Below are positions 3,146-14,369 of a stretch of 14,369 nucleotides of DNA, one piece after another. Source of the stretch: Alphaproteobacteria bacterium (GTDB taxonomy: Bacteria; Pseudomonadota; Alphaproteobacteria; UBA8366). The stretch covers positions 1 through 14,369 of the forward strand of contig JABJCS010000364.1 in the NCBI GenBank assembly GCA_018665505.1, written 5' to 3'. Each line of letters opens with the position of its first letter. Within the stretch, counting starts at the first letter, position 1. Made by a program: the position numbers and the translations under genes. The notes under the pieces were generated by a model. The model was not told the origin of the DNA, did not search any database, and saw only the letters and a program-made list of their open reading frames with translations.

Positions 3146-4318
3146 ATGCCGCAACAAGGCGTCTTCACATATCCGGATATCGAACGGGTTGTCTTCGGTA
3201 CACCCTTCGTCGACGCCGTGCTGGCGGAGGCCCACCGTCTCGGCAAGTCGCGGATTTATGTCCTAGCGAGCGGAACGCTCGCGCGCGAGACCGATTGCCT
3301 TTCTCGGCTTCAAGCCGCGATGGGCGGGCGCATCGCGGGCGTATTCGATCGCTTGCGACCGCACGTGCAACGGGACGACGTGCTGGAGGCCACCACCGAG
3401 GCCCGGGCCGCGGATGCGGATTTAATCCTTACCGTCGGCGGTGGCACGCCGACGGACGCCGCAAAGATGGTTTGCCTCTGCCTCGCCAACGACACGGTGA
3501 ACTACGAAGAGGTCGATCGGCTCCGCTCAATCAGTAAACCCGACGGTAGTATTCTGCACCCGGACCTGAAGGCACCGACCGTGCGATCGATCTTCGTGCC
3601 AACCACCTTATCCGCCGGAGAGTTCGCATCCGGTGCAGGTTGCACGGATTCCAGAGCGAAGATGAAGCAGATGTTCCGCCACCCTCTACTGGCACCCCAA
3701 GTCGTCATCCTCGATCCGGAAATCACCATGCACACGCCGGAATGGCTCTGGCTGTCGACTGGGGTGCGCGCCGTCGATCACGTGGTCGAGGATTTATGCT
3801 CTATTAATCTGCAGCCTTATGTCGAAGGCACGGCCCGGCATGCTCTAAGATTACTGGCCTCCGGTCTGCCGCGTTGCAAGGCCGACCCTTCGGACCTGGA
3901 TGCCCGGCTCGATTGTCAGATCGGCGCTTGGATGTCGATGATCGGTGGTGCTGCCGGTGTTACCAAAGGTGCGAGCCATGGCATCGGCCACATGTTGGGC
4001 GGCACGGCCAATGTGCCGCACGGCTATACTTCCTGCGTTATGCTGCCGAGCGTCCTGTCTTGGAATGAGTCCGTAAACGGCGACCAGCAAGCGGTCGTCA
4101 GCGAGACATTGGGGCGAGCGGGCGAGCCCGCCGCGCAAGCGGTTGGAGACCTGATCGCCGGGCTTGGCATGCCAACCCGCCTACAGGATGTCGACGTCCG
4201 GAAAGATCAATTTCAAGCTATTGCCGAAGCCTCGATGCACGACCGTTGGATACGGACCAACCCTCGGAAAATCATCGACCCGGCTCAAGTCATCGAAATT
4301 TTGGAGATGGCGTGGTAG
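3146..4318 (+). CDS. Iron-containing (group III) alcohol dehydrogenase / maleylacetate-reductase-like protein
   Basis: A 390-residue protein of the Fe-ADH superfamily. The N-terminal half has the dinucleotide-binding G-G-G-T-P-T-D-A-A-K at 98-107 (usual form G-G-G-S-x-x-D-x-x-K). The C-terminal half keeps the metal-ligand histidines: H212 in R-A-V-D-H-V-V-E, H278 in G-A-S-H-G-I-G-H (H282 follows), and H292 in V-P-H-G-Y. The residue four before H212 is Arg208, where FucO-type enzymes carry the Asp ligand; an Asp directly precedes the His instead. Maleylacetate reductases also deviate here, so this is probably a subfamily trait rather than a defect. The expected role is NAD(P)H-dependent interconversion of an alcohol and a carbonyl, or maleylacetate reduction; the substrate is unknown. 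A G-run (3135-3140) five bases before ATG is a good ribosome site. It lies 22 bases after the DUF4169 gene and 5 bases before the glycosyltransferase gene. Confidence 0.88.
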   Translation: MPQQGVFTYPDIERVVFGTPFVDAVLAEAHRLGKSRIYVLASGTLARETDCLSRLQAAMGGRIAGVFDRLRPHVQRDDVLEATTEARAADADLILTVGGGTPTDAAKMVCLCLANDTVNYEEVDRLRSISKPDGSILHPDLKAPTVRSIFVPTTLSAGEFASGAGCTDSRAKMKQMFRHPLLAPQVVILDPEITMHTPEWLWLSTGVRAVDHVVEDLCSINLQPYVEGTARHALRLLASGLPRCKADPSDLDARLDCQIGAWMSMIGGAAGVTKGASHGIGHMLGGTANVPHGYTSCVMLPSVLSWNESVNGDQQAVVSETLGRAGEPAAQAVGDLIAGLGMPTRLQDVDVRKDQFQAIAEASMHDRWIRTNPRKIIDPAQVIEILEMAW

Positions 4319-4323
4319 GGCCG

Positions 4324-7300
4324 ATGAATCGCCAACAACGCCGTCAAGCAGCAAAAGCTGCGAAGCGACAAGGGCAAGCTTCCCAAGATCCTCGCATGGC
4401 GGTGGCGCGGCAAGCCCATATGGAGGGTCGGCATGCGGAGGCGGAGGCGATCTATGACACACTCCTCTCCGAAAACCCGAAAGATGCGGACGCACTCCAC
4501 TTCAAAGGATTGTTACTTTTTCAACACGGGCGAAGCGAGGAAGCCGTGGCAGCACTGCGCGAAGCCATTGCGCTCCGACGCGGGGTGGCGAGCTTTCATG
4601 GAAACTTCGCTAATGTCCTTTTAAATATCGGCGAATTGGAAGAAGCGGAAATCGAATTCCGGAAGGCCATCCGTCTCGACAAGAATTACGCCCGAGCATA
4701 CGTCAATTTCAGCGCCTTGCTCATTGAGAAGGGGAAATTGTCAGAGGCGGAAAGTGCGATCGATCGAGCCTTGAAGCTGGATCCAAATAATTACGAAGCG
4801 ATCAATAACCTGGCCTCTATCTATCGTCGTCAGGGTCGGAACGATGATGCTGAGGCGGCCTTGCACCGTGCCTTGGCGATCAACCCCAATTACGAACTTG
4901 CATATGCGGGTTTGATTTTCGTCCGCGACTTCAATCCACGTTTGAGCTTCGAAGATCAACAAATGGATCGACGCCGATGGGCCGAGAAGTTCATCGATCC
5001 CTTGTCACCCGATTTACCGCCGCAATTCAAGAATCCCAAAGACCCGGAGCGGAAACTCCGTATCGGTTATGTTTCCGGAGATTTTCGCAATCACTCAGCA
5101 GCTATTTCGTTCAGTCCATCCATTCTCGAGCGAGATCGCAATTCCTTTGATGCGTATTGCTATATGACGTCCGCACACCGCGATTCCATTACCGAGAAGT
5201 TCGAAGCGTCAGCTGACGCTTGGCGAACCGCGTGGGGAATGTCGGATGCGGATTTATTGGCGCATATTCAAGCGGACGAAATCGACATCTTGGTTGATTT
5301 GGCCGGCCATTCCGCCGGCAATCGACTTCCCGTATTTGCACGCCACCCCGCACCCATTCAAATATCTGCCTGGGGCCATTGCACAGGGACGGGTATGAAG
5401 GCGATGGACTACATTTTCGCCGATAATATGGTAATGCCGCCAGAAGATGCGCGCCATTGCTCGGAGGAAGTCGTCGAGCTTTCCTGCTGCATCAGCTTCG
5501 CACCGCCTCAGGATGCACCGGATGTTACGACCTCACCCGCTCTGGCGAACGGCTTCGTGACGTTCGGGAGCCTGAATCGGATTGAGAAGATTAGCGACCA
5601 AACTCTTGCGGCGTGGTCGGATATCTTGCGAAAGACGCCGGGTTCCCGGTTGCAATTAAAGAATACCGCGTTTGACGACAAAGATGCCGTGTCTCAAATG
5701 CGCAATCGAATGCGTGCCGTGAACATCAATATTGACCAGGTCGATCTCATCGGCCGAACGCGATGGTACGAGCACCTTGCCACATTGGGGAATGTCGATA
5801 TCGCTTTGGACACATTCCCCAATAATGGCGGCATCACGACATTGGAAACATTGTGGATGGGTGTGCCGGTCGTAGCCATCCGCGGAAAGGGAGCGGCAAG
5901 TCGGATCGCCGCTTCAATCATTTTCGCCAGCGGTCACAATGAATGGGTCGCTGCTTCGGAAACGGAGTACATAAACATCGCAACAAAGCTCGCAAGCGAT
6001 GCCATCGTTCTGGGTGATACCCGCTCAAATCTCCGATCGGAAATCGCGAGCCGCCCACTCGGAAATCCAACCTTATACGCAAAGGAAGTTGAGGATCAAT
6101 ATCGCCGTCTGTGGCGGAACTGGTGCAACGGCGGTGACCCCCTTCAGCACCACTCCGACGTAAATACCGAGAGCGCACCGAGAACCGAAGCTTCCGAACG
6201 CAAAGCTGAGGATGGCAATGCCGATGAGATAATCAGAACGGCGATGGAACACCACAACGCAGGGCGGTTCGATCTAGCCATTTCTGGATACGAAGAAGCA
6301 CTGCAACGACGACCGGACGACCCTGAATTATACCATTTAAAAGGCGTGGCGCTCTCCCAAGCAGGACAATTGGAAGCGGGGATCGCACTCATCCGGCAAG
6401 CCGTTGAACTAAAAGACGATGCGGTAGATTTTCACAATAACTTAGGTCTCTTGCTCTCTCAGGCGGGCCAATTGGAAGCAGCGGAACAATCCCTTCGAAA
6501 GGCCCTTGTAGTAAAGCCAGATCACACACCGGCTTATAGCAATCTCGCCAATGTGCTTGATCGGATGGGCCGAGAGGAAGACGCTTTGGCCGCCCATCGG
6601 ACAGCTATTGAAATCGAACCGAAGAATTCAGCATTGCACGGCAATCTCGGTCTCTTACTGCAAAAGACCGGGCGGACAGAGGAAGCTGCAGCTATTTTGG
6701 GGATCGCAGCTGAGCTGGCGCCGGACTCTCCCCAAGCGCACAATAATTTTGCGAACATGTTGCAGGCAACCGGCGAGTTCGGGCGCGCGGAGACCGAGTT
6801 CAAACACGCCATCGAACTAAATCCAAATTACGCCAACGCCTATCAAAATTTGGGCAGTCTGCTTATCGAAATCGGCCGGACGGAAGAGGGTACTCAGGCG
6901 CTGCGCAAGGCGATAGAGATTCACCCGAATCACGCACAGGCACTCGCTAACCTGTCGACCGGGCTCAATTTATTGAGCCAACACCTTGATGCGGCCGCAG
7001 CTGCGCGAAGGGCGATCGAGATCGCTCCGAATTTAGCTGATGCTCAAAACAATTTGGGCGCAGCCTTACGAGCCCTCGGCGATCATGCGGGTGCCGAGAC
7101 CGCATACAGACGTGCCGTCGCACTTGACCCTGCTCACTCCAAGGCTCACAGCAACCTCATATATTCGCTTGATTTCAATGCCGCCTACGACGTTCGAGAT
7201 CATCAGGCGGAACGGCGGCGTTGGTATGAGCAACACGGTAAACCCCTTGCCGATAAATTTCGTCCACACTCGAACAGTCCGACAGCCAAACGGCGGCTTC

Positions 7301-8397
7301 GCGTGGGATATGTATCGTCCGATTTTCGGCACCATTCCGCAACGAACGGATTTGGCCCGATGTTGTTGTCGTACGACCGGTCCAAGTTCGACGTCATCTG
7401 CTATGCTTGTAATATTACGCAGGATGACGTCACAGATCGTCTCCGTACGGCTGCAACCGAATGGCGGGATTGCGCCCACATGGGAGATGCCGCACTAGCA
7501 GCCCAAATACGCGAAGACAAAATTGATATCTTAGTCGACCTCTCGGGTCACTCGGCGGGTAATCGGTTAATGGTGTTCGCGCACAAGCCGGCACCGGTGC
7601 AAGTCACCGCCTGGGGTTTTGCGAATGGAACCGGCCTGCCGACAATCGATTACTTTTTGACGGACGCGATTGTTACACCGGAGTCGGAACATCACATGTA
7701 TGCCGAATCTGTTCGATTCCTGCCGAGTCACCTGCCCTATATGGCGCCGGTCCCGTCGCCCGACGTCGTCGAGCCACCGTGCCTGGTTAACGACTTTGTG
7801 ACCTTCGGCAGTTTCAATCGGCTTGAAAAAATGAACGATGCCGCCCTTGCAACTTGGTCCGAAATACTCAAACGAGTACCGGACGCGAGACTAATTATAA
7901 AAAGTCAGGCACTCGACCGCGAGACGGTGTTGAAGGAGTTCACTGCACGAATGGCGGTGACTGGTATTGACGCGGATAGGTTCGAACTCCTCGGCAGCGA
8001 TCCGCAACCGGAACACTTAGCCAAACACGCCCTTGTCGACATCATGCTCGACCCTTTCCCACACGGAGGAGGAATGAGCTCGGCTGATTCGCTATGGATG
8101 GGAGTTCCAGTTGTCGCACTGCGCGGAAACACGATTGCTGGCCGGATCGGTGCGTCGGCGCTACACGCCTTAGGGCTCGACGATTTTATCGCATCGAGCA
8201 GAGAGGACTACATTAAGATCGCCTTACGCATGGCCGACGATCTCGGTTATTTAGAGGAACTCCGCACTTTGCTGCGGGGTAAAATACTCACGAGCCCAGT
8301 CGGCGACCCAAGCCTATATGTCGGCGCAGTCGAAGAGATCTATCGGGATATTTGGACAGACTGGTGCGGCGCGCAAAATAGCGCCCCCCCTCTTTAG
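4324..8397 (+). CDS. Tandem TPR-GT41 (SPINDLY/OGT-like) O-glycosyltransferase with two complete catalytic units
   Basis: A 1357-residue protein. The start at 4324 gives M-N-R-Q-Q-R-R, the basic opening typical of alphaproteobacterial TPR glycosyltransferases, and avoids overlap with the dehydrogenase; the frame is open further upstream. Order of domains: five 34-residue TPRs (about 25-194); a GT41 catalytic domain (about 244-603) with G-Y-V-S-G-D-F-R-N-H at 248-257, D-L-A-G-H-S-A-G-N-R-L, N-R-I-E-K422, and D496-T-F-P-N-N-G-G; an acidic linker (604-635); nine TPRs (about 636-941); and a second GT41 domain (about 990-1348) with G-Y-V-S-S-D-F-R-H-H at 995-1004, N-R-L-E-K1169, and D1243-P-F-P-H-G-G-G. 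K422 and K1169 align with the sugar-nucleotide lysine of human OGT. The family transfers a sugar (GlcNAc or fucose) from a nucleotide sugar to Ser/Thr of proteins. There is no signal peptide or membrane segment, so it is predicted cytosolic. By eye it is more A/T-rich than the Moco genes. The target protein is unknown. Confidence 0.92.
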   Translation: MNRQQRRQAAKAAKRQGQASQDPRMAVARQAHMEGRHAEAEAIYDTLLSENPKDADALHFKGLLLFQHGRSEEAVAALREAIALRRGVASFHGNFANVLLNIGELEEAEIEFRKAIRLDKNYARAYVNFSALLIEKGKLSEAESAIDRALKLDPNNYEAINNLASIYRRQGRNDDAEAALHRALAINPNYELAYAGLIFVRDFNPRLSFEDQQMDRRRWAEKFIDPLSPDLPPQFKNPKDPERKLRIGYVSGDFRNHSAAISFSPSILERDRNSFDAYCYMTSAHRDSITEKFEASADAWRTAWGMSDADLLAHIQADEIDILVDLAGHSAGNRLPVFARHPAPIQISAWGHCTGTGMKAMDYIFADNMVMPPEDARHCSEEVVELSCCISFAPPQDAPDVTTSPALANGFVTFGSLNRIEKISDQTLAAWSDILRKTPGSRLQLKNTAFDDKDAVSQMRNRMRAVNINIDQVDLIGRTRWYEHLATLGNVDIALDTFPNNGGITTLETLWMGVPVVAIRGKGAASRIAASIIFASGHNEWVAASETEYINIATKLASDAIVLGDTRSNLRSEIASRPLGNPTLYAKEVEDQYRRLWRNWCNGGDPLQHHSDVNTESAPRTEASERKAEDGNADEIIRTAMEHHNAGRFDLAISGYEEALQRRPDDPELYHLKGVALSQAGQLEAGIALIRQAVELKDDAVDFHNNLGLLLSQAGQLEAAEQSLRKALVVKPDHTPAYSNLANVLDRMGREEDALAAHRTAIEIEPKNSALHGNLGLLLQKTGRTEEAAAILGIAAELAPDSPQAHNNFANMLQATGEFGRAETEFKHAIELNPNYANAYQNLGSLLIEIGRTEEGTQALRKAIEIHPNHAQALANLSTGLNLLSQHLDAAAAARRAIEIAPNLADAQNNLGAALRALGDHAGAETAYRRAVALDPAHSKAHSNLIYSLDFNAAYDVRDHQAERRRWYEQHGKPLADKFRPHSNSPTAKRRLRVGYVSSDFRHHSATNGFGPMLLSYDRSKFDVICYACNITQDDVTDRLRTAATEWRDCAHMGDAALAAQIREDKIDILVDLSGHSAGNRLMVFAHKPAPVQVTAWGFANGTGLPTIDYFLTDAIVTPESEHHMYAESVRFLPSHLPYMAPVPSPDVVEPPCLVNDFVTFGSFNRLEKMNDAALATWSEILKRVPDARLIIKSQALDRETVLKEFTARMAVTGIDADRFELLGSDPQPEHLAKHALVDIMLDPFPHGGGMSSADSLWMGVPVVALRGNTIAGRIGASALHALGLDDFIASSREDYIKIALRMADDLGYLEELRTLLRGKILTSPVGDPSLYVGAVEEIYRDIWTDWCGAQNSAPPL
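4396..6132 (+). repeat. Intragenic module 1: five TPRs plus first GT41 domain
   Basis: First copy of the duplicated unit in the 1357-residue protein (about residues 25-603). It aligns in order with the second copy: TPR array, then R-x-G-Y-V-S-x-D-F-R-x-H-S, a D-I-L-V-D-L-x-G-H-S-A-G-N-R-L segment, F-V-T-F-G-S-x-N-R-x-E-K, L-W-M-G-V-P-V-V-A-x-R-G, and a closing N/D-P-x-L-Y-x-x-x-V-E...Y-R-x-x-W-x-x-W-C. Boundaries are judged by eye. Confidence 0.85.
6229..8367 (+). repeat. Intragenic module 2: nine TPRs plus second GT41 domain
   Basis: Second copy of the unit (about residues 636-1348). It carries four more TPRs than copy 1 and has the same motif order in the catalytic part, but clearly diverged residues (for example H-G-G-G in place of N-N-G-G in the nucleotide-sugar loop). 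Each copy ends in an identical W-x-x-W-C context (W600-C601 and W1347-C1348), fixing the duplication boundary near that point. Confidence 0.85.
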
Positions 8398-11933: not shown

Positions 11934-11965
11934 GCGGCGGCGTCTGAAAATTACAGCGCCGCCGC
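11934..11965. terminator. Hairpin between convergent ridA and selenoprotein genes (possible bidirectional terminator)
   Basis: GCGGCGGCG (11934-11942) pairs perfectly with CGCCGCCGC (11957-11965). The stem extends inward by CTG/CAG after a one-base bulge, leaving a seven-base A/T loop: twelve pairs in all. It starts eight bases past the ridA stop and covers the last codons and stop of the minus-strand gene. No T-run follows on either strand, so it would be a weak or Rho-assisted terminator, or an RNA 3'-end protector. Confidence 0.45.
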
Positions 11966-13189
11966 CTTACGTTCCCGTTGAGCAGCTGGAATTAGCGTTC
12001 TATCGCCGATCTTCGCGGCATACTCATCGCCACTTTCCATGAGAATGGGACGAAGCGCGAACAGGACGGTCGAGGCTGTTGTCTCATCCCAAAACCAATT
12101 GTCGAGTGCGGCACTGTCGGCTTGGCGGCCGGGCTGCGCGGCGGCGGCTTCGAGATAGAAGCTTTTCAAATCCTCGGTCGCATATTTTAGCGTATCTACC
12201 AACTGGACGTCTTCGCGTGGGTTTTCAGGCCATGGCCGTTCGAGAAATTCGGTGATGAACATCGCGAGGTCGGTAATCTCGATCCGTGACAAACCGACCG
12301 TCGTCCGGCCATTACGCGCTTTTAATCCGATATCGTACCATGGGCGCAATTGGTGCATTTCAGCGGCGACGGCTTCGGCCATGCTGCCCGGCGCGGCATC
12401 CGCGCCGGCGGGAGCGCCGAGCGCCACCGGGCACACCCAGCCCGAACCGTCCCCGGTGTCGGCGCTCGCGGGCGCGTCCTCCGGGAAGTCCTCGAGAACA
12501 GGGCCATCTTTCCGCTCCAATAGGCCGAGTGCCTTACCAATTACCCGGCGTTGAAACGCTGGGTCACCCGGCGCACCGAAGGGCCGCCCCAATTCGAACG
12601 ATACCCACAACGCGCGCGGTGGACGGATCCGCTCTGTATGTGGACGCACCAAGCTTATTTGCGTCGTCGCCAGTCCCGCTTCTTCCAGATAATGTGCGAG
12701 CGCGCCCACGGCACGCGTGCAATTCGGTCAGACCGGTGCCAGAAGCACCGCATTGACCTGATCCTCTTTCAAAAACCCGGCGATCTTGCGAACCAGCGGC
12801 GCCATTTCGGCTGGATCGGTCGCTCCCATGAACGAGTAATGATAGTCGGCCACGGAACCGATGATCTTTTCGGTGGCCATTTCGCCCAATCGTTCAATAG
12901 GGAAGACCACGTTCAGGTCTTGCTGATAACCGGTCCGGTCAAAATTCACCGAAATATGGCTCATTACGATGTCTTCTGCCGGCGTGTCGCGATGGAAGAC
13001 TCGGTAATCAGCATCCCCCCGTGCAAACGGCCTATCGTCGCGCAATTGCAGGCCCGCCGTCGAAATCACCGCGACGCGGCGCGCGCGCAAGGGCGGACCA
13101 TCGACGAAAGACGAAGTCTCGAAAGTGGGGCATTCCAAATGCAAGAGGTGCTGCTTTTCTTCCCCAGCAAGGTCGCTCATACGAACCAT
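11951..13189 (-). CDS. Predicted selenoprotein, glycine/sarcosine/betaine/D-proline reductase selenoprotein B (GrdB/PrdB)-like, with in-frame UGA
   Basis: One gene read through a TGA at 12728-12730, giving 412 residues with selenocysteine at 154. The codons before it read A-V-L-L-A-P-V and those after read P-N-C-T-R-A-V-G-A-L-A in the same frame. From memory, clostridial GrdB has U-G-T-C-T-R at its active site, so U-P-N-C-T-R fits. The N-terminal part has I-S-T-A-G-L, D-A-D-Y-R-V, S-H-I-S-V-N-F-D-R-T-G, L-N-V-V-F-P-I-E-R and Y-S-F-M-G-A-T-D-P, all family-like. After about residue 235 a ~175-residue extension is not recognised. The family carries out selenol-based reductive chemistry on amino-acid-derived substrates; here the substrate is unknown and a general thiol/selenol redox role is as likely. 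Start ATG 13189 has GGAA 6 bases upstream; ATG 13180 is an alternative. The frame is also open into the upstream metallophosphoesterase gene, but that part is not family-like. Alternatives are a nonsense mutation or sequencing error. Confidence 0.82.
12695..12721 (-). promoter_or_regulatory. bSECIS-like hairpin for selenocysteine insertion
   Basis: In the mRNA, six bases after the UGA begins a hairpin: UGC (12721-12719), a 2x2 mismatch (AC opposite UC), a seven-pair stem GCGUGCC (12716-12710) with GGCGCGC (12706-12700, one G-U pair), and a GUG triloop (12709-12707), closed by GCA (12697-12695). The loop begins 19 bases after the UGA and its first base is G. Both fit the known rules for bacterial SECIS elements bound by SelB (about 16-37 bases to a small loop with a G near its start). 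Predicted by hand; no folding energy computed. Confidence 0.6.
12728..12730 (-). other. In-frame UGA codon, predicted selenocysteine (Sec154)
   Basis: Stop-type codon TGA within a continuous family-like reading frame, at the position of the family's redox residue and followed three codons later by Cys157 (U-x-x-C). Elsewhere in the window TGA still acts as stop (moeA), so global reassignment of TGA to tryptophan is unlikely. Confidence 0.8.
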
Positions 13190-13256: not shown

Positions 13257-14042
13257 TTAGTCGATACTATGATCGAAAACGCCGTGAACCCGCCCGGCAT
13301 CGAGGTCCATGATCCGGAACGGAAACGGTGTCTCGCAAAAGGCAGGACCGGTCGAATAAGTCACGTCGTTCGCGCTGCGCGTATAAGCGCCCGGATGGTA
13401 GTGCCCAGAGAGAACGGCACGAACCTTAGGGTTCCGATCCACCCGCGCCGCTATCTCCGCATCACCTTGATAGCTATAGGCCGTTCGCCGATAAAGCCGC
13501 GGTCGCAGAATATAATGCTGAAGATGTATTTGCGGTGTCCGATCTTCTTCGCCGCCAAGAGCCGCATCAAATCGCCGCTGTTCATAATTTGGCCGCACGG
13601 GCGTGCGACGCTCGTCGAGGGCATCGTCAAAGCCGATAAAACGCCAGCCTCCTCGCGCCGTATCGGGTGAGGTAGTGGAGAAGACATCGATAAAGGCCGC
13701 TCGATGATCGTGGTTCCCGGGAATAACAACCCAATCCAACGCCGTGCTCTCCAACCAATCGTGCATCCAACGGTAATCGAGCGTCGCTTGCACGACCGCT
13801 TCGGCATAAGCGTCCGGCGCGCTTTCATACAGGCTTTCGTCTACGACCTCATCCGGTACGTCCAGCAAGTCGCCGGTCATAACAATGACGTCGGGCGTCC
13901 ACTCGGACAGTCGGTCGCCAAGGCGTTCCAACAATTTCGGAATATCTCGGGATAGCCGCTCCGTCTGAGTGGCGGTTCCCGCAAGGGCCTGTCGCATATG
14001 CAGGTCGGTCAAATGCAGGATGCGCAGCCGGTCGCCGGCCAT
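13257..14042 (-). CDS. Calcineurin-like metallophosphoesterase
   Basis: A 261-residue protein with the full dimetal phosphoesterase signature set: D13-L-H15, G57-D58, G109-N-H-D112, H176 (L-Q-H) and G213-H-Y-H216. The order and spacing match class III cyclic-nucleotide-phosphodiesterase-like enzymes, which hydrolyse phosphomono- or diesters with two metal ions; the actual substrate is unknown. No signal peptide, so it is predicted cytosolic. I chose ATG 14042 because GGAG lies exactly six bases upstream; ATG 14054 is a second option, while a GTG at 14069 would fall inside the terminator hairpin of the upstream gene. It is followed by the selenoprotein gene on the same strand after 67 bases, so a functional link is possible but not shown. 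Confidence 0.92.
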   Translation of the reverse strand: MAGDRLRILHLTDLHMRQALAGTATQTERLSRDIPKLLERLGDRLSEWTPDVIVMTGDLLDVPDEVVDESLYESAPDAYAEAVVQATLDYRWMHDWLESTALDWVVIPGNHDHRAAFIDVFSTTSPDTARGGWRFIGFDDALDERRTPVRPNYEQRRFDAALGGEEDRTPQIHLQHYILRPRLYRRTAYSYQGDAEIAARVDRNPKVRAVLSGHYHPGAYTRSANDVTYSTGPAFCETPFPFRIMDLDAGRVHGVFDHSID

Positions 14043-14058
14043 ATCTGTCTCCATGACG

Positions 14059-14087
14059 AAAAAGCCCACCCTCGCAGAGAGGGGCGC
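14059..14087 (-). terminator. Rho-independent terminator after the aminotransferase gene
   Basis: On the minus strand, 15 bases past the aminotransferase stop, a stem with core CCCTC / GAGGG (loop TCTGC), extended outward by C-G, C-G and G-C pairs around a bulge and one mismatch, is followed directly by TTTTT (14059-14063). It ends only 16 bases before the chosen metallophosphoesterase start, which implies that gene uses read-through or a promoter overlapping this site. Confidence 0.65.
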
Positions 14088-14102: not shown

Positions 14103-14369
14103 TTACGCGGCGCTCGTGCTAACGAGAGCGGTCCGCTTATCCTGACGCATCACCAACGTGTCGTAATCGTTCATCAACTGCCGGGTGGTCTCGCCCGGCG
14201 TGAATTTATGATCACCAATTTCGGACACCGGCGTCACTTCGACCGCCGTCCCCGTAAGGAACACCTCCTTCGCCTGCGAGAGCTCTTCCGGCTTGATATG
14301 CCGTTCGATGACTTTAATACCGCGCTCTTTTGCCAGTTTCATGACGGTTCTTTTGGTAATTCCGTCGAG
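14103..14369 (-). CDS. ilvE: Branched-chain amino acid aminotransferase, C-terminal part
   Basis: Truncated at the right edge; 88 codons plus TAA remain, open to the last base. The visible end reads D-G-I-T-K-R-T-V, then R-G-I-K-V-I-E-R, E-V-F-L-T-G-T-A-V-E-V-T-P-V and P-G-E-T-T-R-Q-L, the classic C-terminal block of class IV pyridoxal-phosphate aminotransferases of the IlvE type (G-T-A-x-E-V-T-P contacts the cofactor phosphate). The enzyme transfers the amino group between glutamate and the 2-oxo acids of Val, Leu and Ile in the cytosol. The pyridoxal-phosphate lysine lies outside the window. D-amino-acid aminotransferases share the fold, but these motifs favour IlvE. An ATG at 14342 is internal, not the start. 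Confidence 0.88.
   Translation of the reverse strand, partial: LDGITKRTVMKLAKERGIKVIERHIKPEELSQAKEVFLTGTAVEVTPVSEIGDHKFTPGETTRQLMNDYDTLVMRQDKRTALVSTSAA

Follow-up and report, generated by a model that had tools for sequence, protein, structure and literature searches.

The window, which is the whole 14,369-nucleotide stretch analyzed here (contig JABJCS010000364.1 of the alphaproteobacterial assembly GCA_018665505.1), carries on its minus strand a gene that encodes, with very high confidence, a selenoprotein. The features to which we refer are listed below, one per line.

11951..13189, minus strand: gene of 412 residues, almost surely a selenoprotein, with U at 154 (ATG at 13189, TAA at 11953-11951)
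12728..12730, minus strand: in-frame TGA, almost certainly read as selenocysteine, residue 154 (TGA in homologues, Cys relatives, PrdB column)
12719..12721, minus strand: Cys157 of the U-x-x-C motif, putative resolving thiol (invariant in alignment A2 of 46 proteins)
12700..12716, minus strand: putative SECIS-type hairpin (12716-12711 pairs with 12705-12700 as the stem; CGUGG loop at 12710-12706)
12485..13093, minus strand: N-terminal PrdB/GrdB-like alpha/beta domain, residues about 33-235 (NCBIfam PrdB, Pfam GRDB, AlphaFold2)
11957..12391, minus strand: C-terminal all-helical domain, residues about 267-411 (AlphaFold2; absent from PrdB)
13257..14069, minus strand: metallophosphoesterase, 67 bp upstream of the gene (same order in the relatives L001 and L002, not in the other 72 loci)
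14103..14369, minus strand: IlvE-type class IV aminotransferase, truncated where the window ends (order shared by L001 and L002; not found at the remaining 72 loci)

Translation of the minus strand from 13189 to 11951 gives 413 codons that contain one internal stop and then end with TAA. The internal stop is a TGA in the context LLAPV-(TGA)-PNCTRAVG, and there is no frameshift between the two halves in this translated frame. This agrees with an earlier sequence-only reading, which had taken two adjacent frames, lying in the same frame and separated by a single TGA, to be one selenoprotein. Nearly the whole read-through protein can be aligned with the corresponding proteins of L001 (67% identity over residues 1-411) and L002 (64% identity over residues 1-407). 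A mechanical listing of open reading frames reports the halves separately, as 13300-12728 and as a GTG-started frame at 12709-11951, and public protein sets are split likewise: all six best hits inspected (P0001-P0005 and P0007) start at residue 161, with VGALAHY or MGALAHY, which is the start of the second frame in the window. The name given to three of these six C-terminal hits is 'hypothetical protein'. The locus is thus one intact gene that gene callers misread as split. Given that the callers halve the gene and leave the second half hypothetical or unnamed (all six C-terminal hits inspected), a widespread selenoprotein is easily overlooked in this way.

The TGA column and the hairpin 3' of it

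We found 74 loci in species-representative genomes, including a locus (L057) of the cultured carrier Zwartia hollandica; 73 of the loci cover the site (L071 lacks that part), and every one of the 77 copies that cover column 154 has TGA there. None of the six search peptides spans this column, and therefore the TGA was not selected for by the search. We also searched a sample of 289 alphaproteobacterial genomes at E 1e-30 for the two-domain protein, hereafter the long form, and found it in 23 genomes at 26 places. One TGA is present at 24 of these places, and the other two are free of stops and read TGC and TGT; the long form of genome G047 has a TAG in addition to its TGA. Among database proteins, P0006, P0013, P0014, P0020 and P0022 have Cys at the site, a W occupies it in the fragment P0054, and the surrounding stretch is missing from P0019. 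In a tree of 85 rows, seven Cys forms fall in three places among the Sec forms, and well-supported branches force three changes between U and C; the window gene is sister to L001 (support 100/96), with L002 next (100/99). Whether column 154 would be U or C in homologues was one of the checks proposed by the sequence-only reading, and the homologues alternate between UGA and Cys. The in-frame TGA is almost certainly a selenocysteine codon.

Two observations on the loci themselves may be added. Long-form genes occur in tandem, with a TGA in each, at L012:8001-10436, L019:8001-10446, L046:8001-10564 and L051:8001-10440, and the tandem copies of L019 and L051 fall in separate branches of the tree; given these tandem copies in four of 74 loci, some long forms may work as pairs. 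In addition, three metagenome bins titled as Bordetella parapertussis (L040, L041 and L059) group with environmental Burkholderiales and Betaproteobacteria bins, so that these titles are probably wrong.

Next, we analyzed the sequence directly 3' of the TGA, in which a hairpin lies 12 to 28 bases from the UGA. All six stem pairs form in the window's own sequence, as read off the alignment, and one of them is a G-U pair, which is preserved because the Arg codon of the window is CGT. Synonymous codon freezing was ranked over the 152 columns that have a dominant degenerate residue (median 0.47), and the four most frozen codons all overlap the hairpin, namely codons 159 (CGC in 46 of 46), 160 (GCC in 71 of 76), 162 (GGC in 50 of 54) and 158 (ACG in 68 of 77). 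Covariation was then calculated on 77 aligned sequences, 73 of them distinct, which comprised the window sequence and all copies but one (76 of 77); the copy left out has a three-base insertion. The proportion of hairpin cells that pair was 90.4%, compared with at most 70.5% in slid registers, a control that is favorable to the tested register because this register was picked by eye from the alignment. Double changes occupied 24 cells, whereas the shuffles averaged 8.5 and none of 500 reached 24. Four stem pairs show changes on both sides; the clearest is a pair that is normally C-G and becomes U-A in 18 sequences, with the first base of codon 159 and its partner changing together. The second loop base is an invariant G across the alignment, and an early G is characteristic of bacterial SECIS loops.

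Over the 45 bases that follow the UGA, folding energy averaged -14.0, lower than in 11 of 12 other segments taken from these genes but above the lowest value, -15.8. Unguided RNAalifold predicted only three pairs, in another register, and an Rfam search at the site gave only a chance-level hit. The case for the hairpin rests on covariation and codon freezing. These sequence comparisons support the interpretation that the hairpin is a bacterial SECIS-type element maintained by compensatory changes.

If the TGA were instead a true stop, the locus would contain two genes or a pseudogene, with an N-terminal half that ends at residue 153 and a C-terminal half that is either dead or started from the GTG at 12709. 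Gene callers do make the same split. However, TAA and TAG never occur at the column, the proposed GTG start varies among the copies (only 48 of 77 have GTG as codon 161), the Cys relatives are a single unbroken chain, and a covarying hairpin with frozen codons directly follows the TGA. We therefore consider a true stop extremely improbable, and treat the gene as encoding an intact selenoprotein.

Selenocysteine machinery and other candidate selenoproteins in carrier genomes

To decode this codon, a carrier genome should encode the Sec machinery. We screened for sel genes in 13 genomes that were hand-picked from those behind the 74 loci. The selB gene was above the cut-off in all 13 and selA in 12 (G003 had no match). 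A tRNA-Sec was also above the cut-off in 12 of the 13, but the same cut-off was passed by five of 14 control genomes, and therefore only the 11 clear matches of at least 65 bits are counted; of the remaining two genomes, G007 barely passes the cut-off and G012 fails it. In the sample of 289 genomes, selA was found in 41: in 20 of the 21 genomes with a TGA form (G277 lacks it), in neither of the two with a Cys form, and in 21 of the 266 without a long form. The difference between genomes with the TGA form and those with no long form gave a Fisher p of 1.7e-18, a value in which the independence of these related genomes is overstated. The missing selA in G003 and G277 is likely due to incomplete assemblies.

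In nine of the 20 genomes that have both the TGA long form and selA, the two share a contig and are separated by 0.13 to 9.9 kb (G300, G207, G066, G047, G209, G274, G115, G080 and G221). Gene order is common to G300 and G207 and also to G115 and G221, so that the nine represent about seven settings. Genome G008, which is outside the sample, is a tenth linked case, at 3.6 kb. In the other 11 genomes, including that of the nearest relative (G001), the long form and selA lie on different contigs. We fetched the ten linked stretches (L092-L101) and found selA and tRNA-Sec in all ten, a selB-type gene in eight and a selD-type gene in seven; selD was looked at in these islands only, and the selB- and selD-type calls were confirmed on representatives. 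The three selD-type genes examined (L097, L099 and L100) each carry a fused pyridine-nucleotide oxidoreductase domain.

According to the published passages cited here, formate dehydrogenase is the main user of Sec in alpha-, beta- and gammaproteobacteria, fdhA moves together with the sel genes, and the selenoprotein found alongside sel genes in these classes is formate dehydrogenase (Zhang and co-workers, PMC1794560; Mukai, PMC8124441). We therefore compared the long form with TGA-type FDH-N, which was scored on at most two candidates per genome. TGA-type FDH-N was found in 10 of the 289 genomes, all of them selA-positive, and was within 10 kb of selA in seven of the ten. Among the 41 selA-positive genomes, 20 carry the TGA long form and 10 carry TGA-type FDH-N; four of the 20 carry both, and TGA-type FDH-N had no match in the nine genomes in which the long form is within 10 kb of selA. 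Within this sample, the sel genes have a second frequent companion in the long form.

We also considered whether the long form is the sole selenoprotein of the islands, and rejected this, because eight of the ten island genomes have other matches that contain TGA. Candidate Sec residues were found in Prx-type matches (11 of 90, in G115, G080, G221, G207 and G300), in SelW-type matches (all five, in G066, G080, G274, G221 and G207) and in short PrdB-type matches (in G047 and G080). None of the 70 molybdopterin-oxidoreductase matches in the ten genomes has a TGA, and among the families searched G209 and G008 have no other candidate selenoprotein.

The frequent position of the long form in sel islands would be accounted for if its redox chemistry served the housekeeping of selenium or sulfur itself, for example by acting on selenide, selenite or a thiol disulfide. 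Besides the nine genomes with selA within 10 kb, the gene adjoins selA or a selD-type gene in several. However, in the 11 genomes with separate contigs linkage is neither shown nor excluded, TGA-type FDH-N, which has no role in selenium handling, is also found within 10 kb of selA in seven of its ten genomes, and the protein is kept in the two Cys-form genomes that have no selA match. A housekeeping role thus seems unlikely to us.

Domains, neighboring genes and the proposed reaction

The best NCBIfam profile for the protein is PrdB (TIGR04483), with 94 bits over residues 33-225 against an equivalog cut-off of 300. Pfam GRDB (PF07355) matches residues 80-151 with 28.8 bits, above its cut-off of 22, while the profiles for the glycine, sarcosine and betaine reductase B subunits score 35-55 bits against cut-offs of 602-800, all below, and the subfamily TIGR01918 scores 44.7 bits against 65.45. 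Together with the shared TGA column, these matches uphold the earlier assignment to a GrdB/PrdB-like family, and we regard the presence of a PrdB-like domain as virtually certain. AlphaFold2 gave a confident two-domain model (mean pLDDT 91; 93.5 for the C-terminal domain alone), in which the U-x-x-C site lies at the start of a helix. The second half alone (residues 155-412) matched no Pfam or NCBIfam family at E 0.001, the C-terminal domain has no convincing Pfam family, and a fold comparison against the PDB gave no clear match to a solved structure for either part. The conserved residues of the C-terminal domain include E277, W284, R295, D340, Y345, E347, P353, G354, W365 and T370, which indicates that this domain is under selection. 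No plasmid was found with a long form at 80% query coverage (24 records match, and the 15 listed match the N-terminal part), and no long form was found among phages.

We next looked for a partner subunit by means of PF09338, a family that we take to cover the pyruvoyl subunits (PrdA/GrdE type). It had no match in nine of the 13 relatives' genomes, including the two nearest (G001 and G002), and was above the cut-off in three. One PF09338 gene in each of G003 and G006 is 0.8-0.9 kb away from another, distant GrdB-type gene rather than from the long form, and no family member is listed close to the other G003 copy or to the copy in G012. The absence from the two nearest genomes is in line with the sequence-only reading, which had described the gene as a free-standing homologue with no other reductase subunits in view.

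Gene neighbors were scanned from the 74 loci (41 upstream and 30 downstream, on the same strand, within 300 bp, as simple open reading frames of at least 110 residues). No Pfam family appeared more than twice among the 41 upstream neighbors, and TauD was directly downstream in three of the 30. Relatives of the aminotransferase, the metallophosphoesterase and the RidA near the window gene were found only at L001 and L002, and we take this arrangement as local synteny; the aminotransferase looks like a housekeeping IlvE. We considered the neighborhood as a clue to function and rejected it, since the neighbors are not conserved and point to no substrate. Elsewhere in the window, a plus-strand frame of 1383 residues (4246-8397) has two halves that are alike and that match two separate stretches of L001; judged by eye, it may be a doubled TPR plus glycosyltransferase-like protein.

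A TauD/TfdA dioxygenase follows the long form at L055, L063 and L064 and is fused to it in P0022. In the tree, four Cys forms (L080, L081, P0020 and P0022) are grouped with L063 and L064. In one branch, the association with TauD hints at the catabolism of small molecules. Monofluoroacetate has been connected with a GrdB-type system (PMC10838667, cited in part), and the selenol site is shared, which raises the possibility that the long form is a reductive dehalogenase, or a C-N or C-O lyase, for marine or xenobiotic-like small molecules. However, the branch with TauD is different from that of the window gene, and this partly cited report is the single source of the analogy. We consider such an activity rather unlikely, if conceivable, for the window gene.

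We propose instead that UGA 154 would be decoded as selenocysteine by SelB and tRNA-Sec, directed by the putative hairpin, to give a protein with a PrdB-like alpha/beta domain bearing U-x-x-C and a C-terminal helical domain. This product most likely acts as a reductase that is stand-alone or self-associating. Sec154, as the selenolate, would attack or reduce a bond in a small cytosolic substrate; closure of a selenide-sulfide bond by Cys157 would follow, and thioredoxin or another cellular dithiol could reset the enzyme. The helical domain probably replaces the pyruvoyl subunit PrdA/GrdE, either in substrate binding or in oligomer contacts. As a whole explanation, an intact selenoprotein gene for a two-domain, PrdB/GrdB-like, stand-alone reductase seems likely to us. 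With regard to its parts, it is quite probable that the protein is a redox enzyme that uses U-x-x-C, and its action without a pyruvoyl partner is somewhat favored.

The carriers may be aerobic, judging from the groups to which they belong and from marine surveys, and some loci are from anaerobic groups such as Desulfobacterales. A more speculative interpretation, which we put forward only tentatively, is that the long form represents a separate selenoenzyme class, that is, a self-sufficient PrdB-like reductase of aerobes in which the helical domain replaces the pyruvoyl subunit and which acts on an undescribed substrate, its importance being such that complete selABCD islands would be kept or passed on with it instead of with formate dehydrogenase. 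A testable question is what selenium-needing reduction the long form carries out.

Comparison with known systems

The closest known system is PrdB. In both Terrisporobacter and Peptoclostridium, the TGA of prdB itself aligns with residue 154 of the window protein, in alignments of about 31% identity that span residues 33-230 and 10-230, respectively. The site reads U-G-T-C-H-R-S in PrdB and U-P-N-C-T-R-A here, so that both have U-x-x-C, whereas the His after the Cys in PrdB is Thr in the window protein. PrdB is about 240 residues long (genes of 714 and 726 bases), whereas the window protein has 412 residues in two domains, and nearly half of it is an extra domain of about 180 residues that is not found in PrdB, a feature on which the sequence-only reading had not remarked. 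The prdB of Terrisporobacter sits in a prdA/prdC/prdD cluster, while the annotated prdB of Peptoclostridium has no prdA annotated within 4 kb on either side. Therefore, a missing prdA-type neighbor by itself says little.

These comparisons bear on the possibility that the long form is a true subunit of D-proline, glycine, sarcosine or betaine reductase whose pyruvoyl partner is encoded elsewhere. The rank of PrdB as best profile, the identical Sec column and the fact that an annotated clostridial prdB may also sit apart from prdA are all consistent with this. On the other hand, the score is far from the PrdB equivalog cut-off, PF09338 is absent from the two nearest genomes and, in the three of 13 genomes where it exceeds the cut-off, never lies beside the long form, and the protein differs from PrdB in its additional C-terminal half and in the Thr after the Cys. 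We thus regard a true reductase subunit as very unlikely, and retain the stand-alone reductase as our reading.

The GrdB, GrdF and GrdH proteins (PF07355) have U-x-x-C in common with the window protein, and the match to their profiles, which have about 430 positions, covers only profile positions of about 267 to 421. Both GrdB and PrdB carry UxxC, and their enzymes reductively cleave amino acids with other subunits, according to the part of a review cited here (PMC13188914). Short genes of the 'glycine/sarcosine/betaine reductase selenoprotein B family' in the same genomes are 25-41% identical to the long form, mostly over residues 33-230, and the matches stop before its C-terminal domain; the six TGA short forms inspected have a U-x-x-C-H-Q-T motif. 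In the 13 genomes there are 57 family matches, of which 26 are long, all with one TGA, and 31 are shorter, 28 with TGA and three free of stops. Genomes G001, G006 and G007 each have 7 to 11 GrdB/PrdB-type matches, most of them with TGA, and the U-x-x-C-H-Q-T short forms are present in G001.

Selenoproteins of a related kind are common in seawater. A survey of the Sargasso Sea in 2005 listed 42 UxxC 'PrdB' genes, which were among the commonest selenoproteins (PMC1088965), and they ranked as high in the GOS data of 2008, with 235 Sec and 110 Cys forms (PMC2398784). In a 2021 study (PMC9402790), 'proline reductase' accounted for 6.4% of marine selenoprotein genes. As described in the passages cited, these marine proteins have Sec in UxxC and are PrdB/PF07355-like; the same passages do not mention a C-terminal domain or gene order. 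Among the open-licence papers listed by our literature searches, no title or opening part of an abstract describes the long form, its missing partner or its link with sel genes. The marine surveys may well contain this long form. Given that marine UxxC PrdB was reported in 2005 and 2008, the window gene is less surprising than the sequence-only reading had held: the kind of protein is already known, and the two-domain long form is a variant of it.
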